A DNA stretch of 35,934 nt from Smithella sp. (GTDB lineage Bacteria; Desulfobacterota; Syntrophia; Syntrophales; Smithellaceae): assembly GCA_030018675.1 (NCBI GenBank), contig JASEHT010000004.1, positions 1-35,934 on the forward strand, in the 5' to 3' direction. Under the pieces are notes generated by a model. It saw only the letters and a program-made list of their open reading frames with translations. It had not been told where the DNA came from and did no database searches. How positions within the stretch are numbered: position 1 is the stretch's first letter; every line of letters begins with the position of its first letter. The translations under genes and the position numbers were made by a program. Shown piece by piece: positions 6,214 to 10,031 of this stretch.

Positions 6214-7167
6214 ATGGCAGAAGATTACTATCAGGTTCTGGGCGTCGAAAAAAAAGCTTCGGCAGACGATATTAAAAAAGCTTATCGAAAGCTTGCATTG
6301 AAATGGCACCCGGACAAAAACCCAAATAATAAGGCGGCTGAGGAAAAATTCAAGAAAATTAGCGAAGCGTATGCTGTTTTAAGTGATAATGAAAAACGTC
6401 AGCAGTACGACCAGTTCGGATCGGCTGATCAGTTCCGTCAGCAATATTCCCAGGAAGATATTTACCGTAACTTTGATCTTGATGAAATATTGCGAAGTTT
6501 CGGATTTGGAGGAGCAAAGGGAGGCAGGACGACTTTCCGTACAGGAAGAAGGGGAGGCGGCGCCCGCGATGATTATGATGACCCCTTTGCCGGTCTCTTT
6601 GGCGGCGGTATGGGTGGCGGAAGACAATACGCGAATATGTCGCAAAAAGGACAGGATGCTGAATATAACTTGTCGATTACATTAGAAGAATCTGTTTTCG
6701 GCGCCGATAAAAAGATATCATTTAAGCTCGAAAACCGGATTGAAGACATCAACGTAAAAATACCGGCGGGCATCAGCAACGGAAAAAAATTGCGTTTGCC
6801 CGGCAAGGGATTATCCGGTCACAACGGCGGTCCCAGTGGCGATTTATACTTAAACATTAATGTATTGCCTCATCCTATCTATGCCCGCGATGGCAATGAT
6901 CTCTATATCGAAAAGACCATCAAATTCACCCAAGCGGCGCTCGGAACAACAATAGATGTTCCGACGCTGGACGGAACATCTAAACGAATCAAAATCGCAC
7001 CTGGCACTCAAAATAACACCAAAATTCGCATGAAGGGTTATGGCGTACCGGGATTAAAAGGCGCTCCCAAAGGGGACCAGTACGTAAAAATAAACGTTGA
7101 AGTTCCGAAGAAGCTTTCCGATCGCCAGGCTAAACTTGTTGAGCAACTAGCCGCCGATGGCATATGA
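6214..7167 (+). CDS. cbpA: CbpA-type DnaJ co-chaperone (no zinc finger)
   Basis: A type II J-protein (317 aa) that would stimulate DnaK ATPase and hand over substrates in the cytoplasm. An N-terminal J domain (about residues 4-70) has the HPD triad in KWHPDKNP. Next comes a Gly/Phe-rich linker with several GGG runs (about 92-135), then two C-terminal beta-sandwich domains ([15 protein letters not shown] onward; [33 protein letters not shown]). The four CxxCxGxG zinc-finger motifs of true DnaJ are absent, which separates it from dnaJ. The E. coli counterpart CbpA also binds curved DNA; that is not shown here. AAAGG at 6203-6207 precedes the ATG. It ends the plus-strand block. Confidence 0.9.
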
Positions 7168-7425
7168 TTCCTTGCCGTCGCAATATCATCTTTGATTTAA
7201 TAAAGAATCCTGTGATCGCTGTAAATTGAATTATTTAAGTAACTTAAGCTTTTTGATGGCCTGCTATCCTTGTCTAATAATTAAAACATTACGTCCTATA
7301 AGATATCTTATGTAAACATGAAAGAGAAACGATTCGAAATATAGGCTGAAATTGAATCGATTAGGATAATCAAACAACCCGTCTCAATAATTTAAAGAAT
7401 ATTAGCAGAAATTCGTTCGGGCGAT

Positions 7426-8235
7426 CTATCGACCGGAAACCAAGAGAGTGCTCAATTGCCTGTATGATTTTGGAACATTAAAATGATGAATGGATCTTTC
7501 TTTTTGCAGATTAAGAGTCCAGTTTGTACCATTATCGGCGCTCTGTCGGGCAATATTCATGTTATTAGTCAAAGTTTCCTTTTGACGGCTCCCCTCTTCC
7601 GTTTCCGGCAAATGCTTCCCCGACCTTTTTAATTCTTCAAGCATGGCGCTTTCAATGATAGAGACTGATCTTGTTTCGATTTCACGGAGCATCCGGATTT
7701 GCGTCTCATCAGGCGTTGAGGACGGAAGAATAATTCGGAAAGGCCTATCTATAACGCTTTTCAATGATTTGTTTAAAATAAAAGAGGCTAGTTTTTCGGC
7801 GGCTTGTTCAGGAGTGTTTGTTTCAGAGCAACCGGGTGCTGCAACTTCATTATACATCGGGCAAACGGTAATGGTATAATATTCCGCTTCCGGCAAGAGA
7901 AGTTCATCTCCGATTAAAGGCCCGAAATTCAGCGGCCGGAAAAGTTCATCGGTGGGATCTGGTATATTCAGCAAGTTAATGGGGTTAGGATTTGTGCTCA
8001 AATTTTTATTATCAAAGGCACTTGGCAGTGCCCCGGAGGATTCGGGAGATGTCGGAGAAATGGACGGAATGGTGGTATTGGGCGGTAATTCGACGGATAG
8101 TATATTCAGAAGGTTTTGAAAATTAATGGTTACGCCTTCAGCGAACGCTGCTTTTAAAAAATGACATGGAGAAAAAAATAAATACGCTGACAGCGTAAAC
8201 GCCAGTAAAGTCATTTTAAACGTTTCCCGGGTCAT
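7426..8235 (-). CDS. secreted or periplasmic protein of unknown function
   Basis: I do not recognise this 269-aa protein. Residues 1-32 form a signal peptide: a positively charged start, a hydrophobic core (LLAFTLSAYLFF) and a likely cleavage after AFA/EG. A proline/serine/asparagine-rich, probably disordered stretch follows (about 45-95). The rest contains two cysteines (VCPMY and PGCSE), a predicted helical part (AAEKLASFILNKSLKSVIDR) and a polar tail. It starts with ATG at 8235 behind GGTGG. It is the last gene of the minus-strand run, 36 bp downstream of the zinc-ribbon/TIR-like gene, so it may share its transcript. It converges on the co-chaperone gene across 258 bp. Confidence 0.7.
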   Translation of the reverse strand: MTRETFKMTLLAFTLSAYLFFSPCHFLKAAFAEGVTINFQNLLNILSVELPPNTTIPSISPTSPESSGALPSAFDNKNLSTNPNPINLLNIPDPTDELFRPLNFGPLIGDELLLPEAEYYTITVCPMYNEVAAPGCSETNTPEQAAEKLASFILNKSLKSVIDRPFRIILPSSTPDETQIRMLREIETRSVSIIESAMLEELKRSGKHLPETEEGSRQKETLTNNMNIARQSADNGTNWTLNLQKERSIHHFNVPKSYRQLSTLLVSGR

Positions 8236-8271: not shown

Positions 8272-9222
8272 TTATATTTTTTTTCTCCGTCCGACCACAG
8301 CACAAATAACATCGTAGAGCTTTTCCTTTAACTCGTCTGTCGTTTCCCAGACGACATGGTTATACTGCCTCGTGTCGAAATGAACGTTTTTGAGGTCGTC
8401 TTTGCGAACGCACCAGATAACCGGGAGATTTCTGCCTATGGCATAACCCGCTTCGAAATAAACCACCCTTTGTTGTTCAGTAACTTCCGCTACGACAAAC
8501 AGGGAGTTTTTTATTTCTGCGATGATTTTGGCGTTTATTTTATCACTATGCTGTTTCGAATTAACCCGGCAAGCCTTGTATCCCGCGTCATTTATGGCTG
8601 GCTTGATCGCCCTTTCCCATGCGATATTCATTGAATTCGAAAAAGACATTGCCACATAGGCCTGACTTAATTCAATTGCTCTTTGCTCGTATTTATCCAG
8701 ATATTCCCAACCGGAAGGGCTGATGGCGACTGCCACCGGCTTGTTGCCGCCGGCAAGGATTTCCTTCCTATCATCGATTGAAATCAGCAGGCCACGTTCA
8801 ACGAGAAATCTGATATAAAAAAACAGTTCCTCGGGGGCGGAGGCCCAGGCCAACGGATAATCAAATCGAGGGTGTATGGAAACAATATCACCGGGATATT
8901 TAGATTTCTGCGAAATATGCCGCAGAAAAAGATACTGTTTGTCGGAGGGATTGTAGTCTGGAATGGATTGCTCAATTTCCTTCAGAATGCTCATATTAAT
9001 ATCAGGAATTTCCATGCCGAGTTCAGAAAGATTCCTTATCCAACCGGAAAGTTTCGGCCCTAGATTTTTTTCCTCGATCCATGGCTGGAGTGAATTTGAT
9101 ATTCTGAATTCTCCGCAGCGGGCGCATTTATATTGTAATGCCTTGCCGGACTTTTCTTTAACGGAAACGTCCAGAGCTTGAATCTTGCAGACGGGACAAA
9201 CATTGCTGGGTGTTTTTTTCAT
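8272..9222 (-). CDS. zinc-ribbon protein with C-terminal nucleoside deoxyribosyltransferase/TIR-like domain
   Basis: An accessory protein of about 316 aa. The N-terminus has a two-pair zinc ribbon (CPVC, then CARC about 20 residues later). A middle part (about 60-185) has no motif I know. The last ~130 residues form a Rossmann-like domain: YVAMSFSNSM, AIKPAINDAGYKACRV, IIAEIKNSLFVVAEVT, VYFEAGYAIGRNLPVIW and HFDTRQYNHVVW. The Glu of YFEAGYA lies where nucleoside 2-deoxyribosyltransferases carry their nucleophile; the fold is shared with TIR-like NADases. A role in nucleotide or NAD cleavage, possibly defence, is inference. A TTG at 9237 is in frame, but I prefer ATG 9222 (behind TGATGGA). It lies downstream of the UPF0280 gene. 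Confidence 0.8.
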   Translation of the reverse strand: MKKTPSNVCPVCKIQALDVSVKEKSGKALQYKCARCGEFRISNSLQPWIEEKNLGPKLSGWIRNLSELGMEIPDINMSILKEIEQSIPDYNPSDKQYLFLRHISQKSKYPGDIVSIHPRFDYPLAWASAPEELFFYIRFLVERGLLISIDDRKEILAGGNKPVAVAISPSGWEYLDKYEQRAIELSQAYVAMSFSNSMNIAWERAIKPAINDAGYKACRVNSKQHSDKINAKIIAEIKNSLFVVAEVTEQQRVVYFEAGYAIGRNLPVIWCVRKDDLKNVHFDTRQYNHVVWETTDELKEKLYDVICAVVGRRKKI

Positions 9223-9311
9223 AAATCCATCAGTCAATTACGGTTGGAGATTATTCACGGGAAATACTGCTTATTTCTTAAACCAATATCCCCGAACTAT
9301 CAACCGGTTTT

Positions 9312-10031
9312 TTAGACAAGTTCAACCTCCCCTATTGCGCCCATATCTTTTCCGCATATGATGATAATTCCCGTAATCCCGGATATTGTAATGCCGAAAT
9401 CCAGCGCTTTTCTGATATCCTGGCTGCTTTTGACTTGATTGCCGATAGCGGAAGCAGCGGCATCGGCCAGCGTCGCGGACGGGGAAATAACGCAAACCGC
9501 GTCCGCTTTGCCGAAGCTGAGCGATGGGCCGACCGTGCCGGACGATGTGCAAATGCCGACAGGCGTTTCTTTAGGTTTTACGATGAAATTGATATTGTAA
9601 CTTAAAGGAGATTCTCCGGCAAAAACGGATGTGATCAGTTTTTTTTTGGATCTTAAGAAAATGTCCCCGCCGTTTTCGATGATGATGTTTTCCGTCAAAT
9701 CCATAAGATCACGCCCCACAAATTCAGAAACGGCTCCCGCCACTCCGGCCATCGGCCCTACTCCGCATATTTTTGATTTCGAAAGCATCTCTCTGACAAT
9801 CGGCGGAGCTAAATCATCATCGGCAAGCGGAGTCAGAGATTTCTGAAATTCAGGATGATTCTTGATGTAGGACTCTAAAAAATTACGGTGTTTTGCAAGG
9901 GACTCGAAGGCTTCATCAGCAAGATGAACATCAGAACTGATTAAGAGATCGCTTTCTGCAATTTTCACATTATACGAAACAAGATTATCCTTGTTAATTA
10001 AGGATCTATATGTCCTGTTTTCATATTCCAT
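9312..10031 (-). CDS. UPF0280 family protein (ApbE-like fold)
   Basis: A 239-aa member of the UPF0280 family, related in fold to the flavin transferase ApbE. Visible family blocks are GVGPMAGVAGAVSEFVG (about residues 90-106), IIIENGGDIFL, then CTSSGTVGPSLSFGKADAVCVI and LADAAASAIGN. The TSSGT...ADAAASAIGN spacing resembles the ApbE threonine/metal site. The biochemical role of UPF0280 proteins is unknown to me; a cofactor-binding or flavin-related role is an inference from the fold. Its ATG lies 9 nt after the dnaE stop, so the two genes are probably cotranscribed. Confidence 0.85.
   Translation of the reverse strand: MEYENRTYRSLINKDNLVSYNVKIAESDLLISSDVHLADEAFESLAKHRNFLESYIKNHPEFQKSLTPLADDDLAPPIVREMLSKSKICGVGPMAGVAGAVSEFVGRDLMDLTENIIIENGGDIFLRSKKKLITSVFAGESPLSYNINFIVKPKETPVGICTSSGTVGPSLSFGKADAVCVISPSATLADAAASAIGNQVKSSQDIRKALDFGITISGITGIIIICGKDMGAIGEVELV

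Follow-up and report, generated by a model that had tools for sequence, protein, structure and literature searches.

What does a zinc-ribbon protein encoded directly after the guaB-dnaE-UPF0280 genes of a Smithella species do, and how did its gene come to stand there? A preliminary description of the window, i.e. the whole stretch of DNA that was analysed (35,934 nucleotides of contig JASEHT010000004.1, assembly GCA_030018675.1), had suggested an inserted defence or nucleotide-salvage gene. We examined this gene, here called P0001, by structure prediction, family searches and comparison of its locus across the genus and the phylum, and a putative role in defence emerges as the best explanation, which we regard as plausible.

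Domain architecture and residue conservation

P0001 (9222-8272, minus strand) starts with an ATG at 9222 and ends with a stop codon at 8274-8272. Its frame, open throughout and present as a single copy in its own genome, encodes 316 amino acids with a predicted succession of zinc ribbon, helical stretch, winged helix and NDT/TIR-like domain. The N-terminus reads MKKTPSNVCPVCK and continues through YKCARCGEF, and the C-terminal part includes VYFEAGYAIGRNLPVIWCVRKDDLKNVHFDTRQYNHVVWE. The two CxxC pairs listed in the preliminary description are indeed found at residues 9-12 (CPVC) and 33-36 (CARC(G)), as are the motifs YFEAGYAIGR (residues 255-264) and HFDTRQYNH (residues 281-289), and these features are more than chance, 61 distinct homologs aligning with the protein.

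An AlphaFold2 model built on a 29-sequence alignment (A2) has a mean pLDDT of 84 and a pTM of 0.56, a value at which the arrangement of the domains stays uncertain. In this model, a beta-rich ribbon carrying C9, C12, C33 and C36 (residues 1-42; 9097..9222, minus strand) is followed by helices up to residue ~90, by a winged-helix-like domain recognised from its order of helices and strands (residues ~92-184; 8671..8949, minus strand) and by an alternating beta/alpha domain (residues ~187-309; 8296..8664, minus strand). The middle region, described before as unassigned, does link the two ends of the protein but can now be assigned to the helical stretch and the winged helix, the latter matching weakly the PadR-like regulator 1xma (E 0.04, A1 profile).

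Among the 61 homologs, Glu257 (codon 8452..8454, minus strand), the candidate nucleophile in YFEAG, is present in all, as are G259 and F282, while D283 is found in 60 and H281 in 58; the HFD motif (residues 281-283; 8374..8382, minus strand) is a signature of the family. All four ribbon cysteines are kept in 38/61 homologs, and 18 of the 56 longer ones have another N-terminus in place of the ribbon pattern, several rows of the 61-homolog alignment being truncated at a contig end. In further genomes of the phylum, different sequence surrounds the catalytic domain, so that this domain behaves as a mobile module.

A PadR-like winged helix joined to a zinc ribbon would also suit a transcription regulator that senses a ligand and whose NDT-like domain binds a nucleotide without cleaving it. 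The invariance of the candidate catalytic Glu and the lack of a conserved target operon both speak against such a regulator, which we hold to be highly improbable.

Fold and family relationships

Foldseek searches of the PDB with the C-terminal domain were led by SPARTA TIR-APAZ, the Chroococcidiopsis NDT, DNPH1/Rcl, MilB and AbTir, with a probability of 1.00 for CtNDT and DNPH1 and target-normalised TM-scores of up to 0.77 for DNPH1/Rcl. The Rossmann-like NDT/TIR C-terminus proposed in the preliminary description is hence the very fold that structure prediction and fold search returned, rather than an unrelated one, and weak sequence profiles agree with it: the top PDB profile match is Rcl/DNPH1 (E 0.0024), and Pfam Nuc_deoxyrib_tr (PF05014) scores 21.1 bits versus a gathering cut-off of 28.8. 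The Glu of the Rcl/DNPH1 sequence GYELG lies under E257, where the catalytic-Glu context xExG-A of NDT/DNPH1 (PF05014) is present, in agreement with the earlier placement of this residue at the position of the NDT nucleophile, itself an established Glu (PMC10913048). At the level of sequence only, a hydrophobic position of the P0001 family falls in the Asp column of Rcl, and the strand-1 position (Tyr in NDT/DNPH1) is F in 60/61 homologs and Y in P0001. Altogether, the model and these matches support an NDT/TIR/DNPH1 fold for the C-terminal domain.

The PADLOC model PDLC00733 ('Effector, TIR') matches residues 202-301 of P0001 (E 6.6e-13) and is matched by 29/29 aligned members of the family; Pfam TIR gives no match to P0001 and NCBIfam no relevant one. 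The phage family phrog_16139 matches residues 73-306 (E 9.8e-42), that is, nearly the full length, but is listed as of unknown function and adds no mechanism. None of the libraries searched assigns a function to the family.

By both sequence and fold, the closest neighbour of P0001 is DNPH1, which hydrolyses nucleotides and has a housekeeping role, and one may ask whether P0001 is a nucleoside- or nucleotide-processing enzyme (a DNPH1-like dNMP N-hydrolase or a deoxyribosyltransferase) acting in salvage or pool cleaning, its N-terminal domains being regulatory. Besides the profile and structural matches to DNPH1/Rcl, such a role is favoured by one divergent homolog (L034), located between genes for an anaerobic ribonucleotide reductase and a radical-SAM protein; elsewhere the family has no association with nucleotide metabolism. 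DNPH1/Rcl and the NDTs (PF05014) share the C-terminal fold and the catalytic Glu position with P0001, but they are single-domain proteins of ~150 aa, whereas P0001 has a preceding zinc ribbon and winged helix, and the HFD motif is its family's own. These extra, sensor-like domains and the carriage by prophages and plasmids make nucleotide salvage less likely, and the patchy distribution and the Pfam score under the cut-off weigh in the same direction, so that we consider a processing enzyme unlikely.

Distribution and mobility

P0001 occurs in 4/17 genomes of the genus (G000, G002, G011 and G013), always directly after the UPF0280 gene. On the UPF0280 tree, in which many forks are weak, the carriers are scattered, requiring four changes, and 0% of the bootstrap trees allow a single change. 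This presence/absence pattern speaks against a regular gene of the dnaE operon, a reading that was rejected, and supports P0001 as an accessory, inserted gene, distributed sporadically and not conserved as part of a core operon. Across the phylum, a single-sequence search finds matches in 21/395 genomes and a profile search in 35/395, of which ~14 span all or nearly all of the architecture. Two of the homologs from the profile search contain in-frame stops (G096, L036 9666-10568; G209, L043 9379-10335), suggesting that the gene is dispensable and decaying in places. The nearest homolog beyond the genus is encoded, in an unrelated setting, by a Syntrophus MAG; it is 66% identical to P0001, whereas the best UPF0280 match and the DnaE of this MAG are 39% and 64% identical to those of the window. 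These identities suggest, without proving it, a horizontal transfer.

Relatives of P0001 were found at 41 viral or prophage contig loci and on 5 plasmids, and distant ones occur in staphylococcal phages, where they stand alone and inverted within the replication module. A tblastn search of INPHARED phages with P0001 gave no match, all matches were distant and at domain level when a homolog served as query, and a second viral scan with L041 as query gave none. Phage carriage, together with a winged helix and zinc ribbon that suggest nucleic-acid binding, would fit a mobile-element gene altering the physiology of the host or of a rival phage, by superinfection exclusion or by removal of bases as an N-glycosidase on DNA; action on DNA has been proposed for the NDT domains of Abi fusions (PMC3710099). 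P0001 however bears no DNA glycosylase signature and lies on the chromosome, without phage genes, in four genomes, and we view this reading as quite improbable.

A variable spot at the chromosomal dif site

The immediate surroundings of P0001 agree with those described before: guaB-dnaE-UPF0280 upstream and, downstream, a signal-peptide-like protein without Pfam match (7426..8235, minus strand). That the gene lies at the end of a housekeeping operon is correct as to position, but it is not a simple operon end, since P0001 is preceded by a conserved element of its own. This promoter-like element, TTGATA-17-TAAGAA in the window (9275..9303, minus strand), is common to the four carriers in a TTGATA-17-TATTAC-like form and missing from the empty sites read; it received no score in a generic promoter scan. 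As judged from this conservation, P0001 probably has its own promoter.

Comparing the intergenic regions between UPF0280 and dnaJ across the genus and the family brought out a common sequence, ATGTTTACATAACATATCTTATAGGACGTAA, for which matches were then found among the dif sites published for deltaproteobacteria. The site in the window, ACGTCCTATAAGATATCTTATGTAAACA (7291..7318, plus strand), is identical at 24/28 positions to the dif published for Syntrophus aciditrophicus and likewise to that of Geobacter sulfurreducens (PMC2731167). The genome contains a single copy, with none expected by chance in the window, and the site is conserved in sister genomes; the dif pattern of E. coli has no match within the window when 3 mismatches are allowed. 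The presence of this chromosomal dif, which does not figure in the preliminary description, means that the window spans the recombination locus of the replication terminus.

The UPF0280 gene (9312..10031, minus strand) and a dnaJ-like gene (6214..7167, plus strand) form the conserved left and right borders of an interval around dif, which serves as a variable insertion spot across the genus. The spot is essentially empty in five genomes (G004, G005, G015, G016 and G017), contains the secreted protein without P0001 in three (G003, G008 and G009), a Mrr-family restriction gene with Vsr in G012 and a LmuB-like SMC-type ATPase in G007. That the same site occurs empty or with other cargo supports the earlier suggestion of an inserted gene. 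The signal-peptide-like protein recurs at the dif spot of four sister genomes (G002, G003, G008 and G009). As P0001 and this protein are each found without the other, a toxin-antitoxin pair formed by the two was rejected.

A position between dif copies is known for elements that rely on the XerCD system of the host. In G003, G009 and G014, two dif copies flank a filamentous prophage that has a Zot/pI ATPase and, in G009, also a secretin; the coordinates of these prophages are 3624-8425 of L120, 3640-10811 of L121 and 3063-9647 of L118, respectively. P0001 itself, in the stretch from UPF0280 to dif, is not flanked by two dif copies. In G014, a DACNV/DAC-type protein (a sensor with a DisA-like remnant; L118 950-2266) is a further cargo of the spot beside the prophage.

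Neighbours of homologs and comparison with known immune systems

Clustering of the genes that neighbour homologs elsewhere revealed no conserved partner of P0001 beyond phage structural genes, and P0001 as part of a multi-gene system was accordingly rejected. Some homologs do adjoin defence-related genes: a bSEFIR gene lies 7 bp upstream of the homolog on a Leptospira plasmid (L053), another homolog (L036) adjoins two genes, one for type IIG restriction-modification and one SIR2-like, and a third a VapBC-like pair (L045). A PADLOC scan of 60 neighbours gave many matches, mostly to generic models, which in the absence of a control set are not counted as enrichment. The homolog contexts fit accessory or defensive cargo, with the defence neighbours being anecdotes without a control count.

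Two loci deserve a separate mention. At L046 (9681-11829), a divergent homolog lies directly downstream of genes for a ThsB protein and PDC-M50A, possibly forming a three-gene system. On an Aliarcobacter plasmid (L055 7776-9724), a truncated homolog ends 3 bp before a fusion of a second NDT-like domain with a TRAFs-binding region, and two TIR genes are found nearby.

The PADLOC match and the top Foldseek matches tie P0001 to TIR effectors (SPARTA TIR-APAZ, AbTir), from which it differs by having no Pfam TIR match. None of its neighbours in the window is a cyclase, Argonaute or ThsB gene; a partner of the CBASS or Thoeris type (cyclase or ThsB) is missing beside P0001, ThsB adjoining only the divergent homolog of L046. 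The NDT-like effector of Retron-Eco1 (Ec86), which works by NAD+ hydrolysis (PMC12405507), resembles P0001 in length and in uniting an NDT-like with a DNA-binding domain in a single protein; however, its NDT domain is N-terminal and its wHTH C-terminal, the reverse of the order in P0001. When P0001 was compared directly with the Ec86 effector of BL21, no homology was detected (hhalign probability 0.3%), and there is no reverse transcriptase beside P0001, the ORFs of the window there being dnaE, UPF0280, the secreted protein and dnaJ. P0001 as a retron-type effector was rejected on the basis of the reversed order and this hhalign result. DUF4062 of Swarozyc is a TIR-like immune NADase, distantly similar to TIR and NDT and with a conserved Glu (PMC13174449), but Pfam DUF4062 gives no match to P0001. 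Finally, NDT domains fused to Abi modules have been predicted to be suicide toxins (PMC3710099).

A putative stand-alone immune effector

With confidence slightly better than even, we propose that P0001 is a stand-alone, horizontally moving immune protein of the abortive-infection type inserted beside dif. Our results support the predicted architecture, the NDT/TIR fold with its invariant Glu, the sporadic occurrence of the gene, its mobile contexts and a variable spot at dif. It is favoured by the NDT/DNPH1/TIR fold with a Glu at the nucleophile position; by the match of all 29 aligned members to the PADLOC effector model; by the patchiness in genus and phylum with prophage and plasmid carriage; by a spot common to filamentous prophages, a Mrr-type restriction gene with Vsr and a LmuB-like gene; by the homologs that adjoin ThsB, bSEFIR, type IIG RM or SIR2-like genes; and by the precedents of Abi-NDT fusions and Retron-Eco1. 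The housekeeping role of DNPH1, the modest pTM and the anecdotal nature of the neighbours count against it.

In the proposed mechanism, the zinc ribbon and winged helix would bind a ligand derived from infection, either a nucleic acid or a phage protein, and would thereby switch on the C-terminal domain, probably through oligomerisation. The activated domain would then break the N-glycosidic bond of a nucleotide with Glu257 as nucleophile, and the infected cell would stop growing before phage release. NAD+ is the likeliest candidate substrate, at about even confidence, and a free (deoxy)nucleotide comes next, as a possible but rather doubtful one.

More broadly, we put forward a tentative proposal with two joint parts, which we judge possible but are inclined to doubt as a whole: that proteins combining a zinc ribbon, a winged helix and an HFD-type NDT/TIR domain form an as yet unrecognised, phylum-crossing class of partnerless single-protein immune sensor-effectors, which would sense infection directly and kill as nucleotide N-glycosidases, and that dif is a small hotspot for defence genes and inoviruses in this group of Syntrophales. 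In several immune systems, killing is done by NDT/TIR-like domains, which usually have to be switched on by a partner (cyclase, Argonaute or retron). If the proposal is true, a family with its own probable sensor and no conserved partner would represent a compact system that lends itself to tests in E. coli, and dif, the Xer site at the chromosome terminus and a known entry point of filamentous phages, may also collect anti-phage genes.
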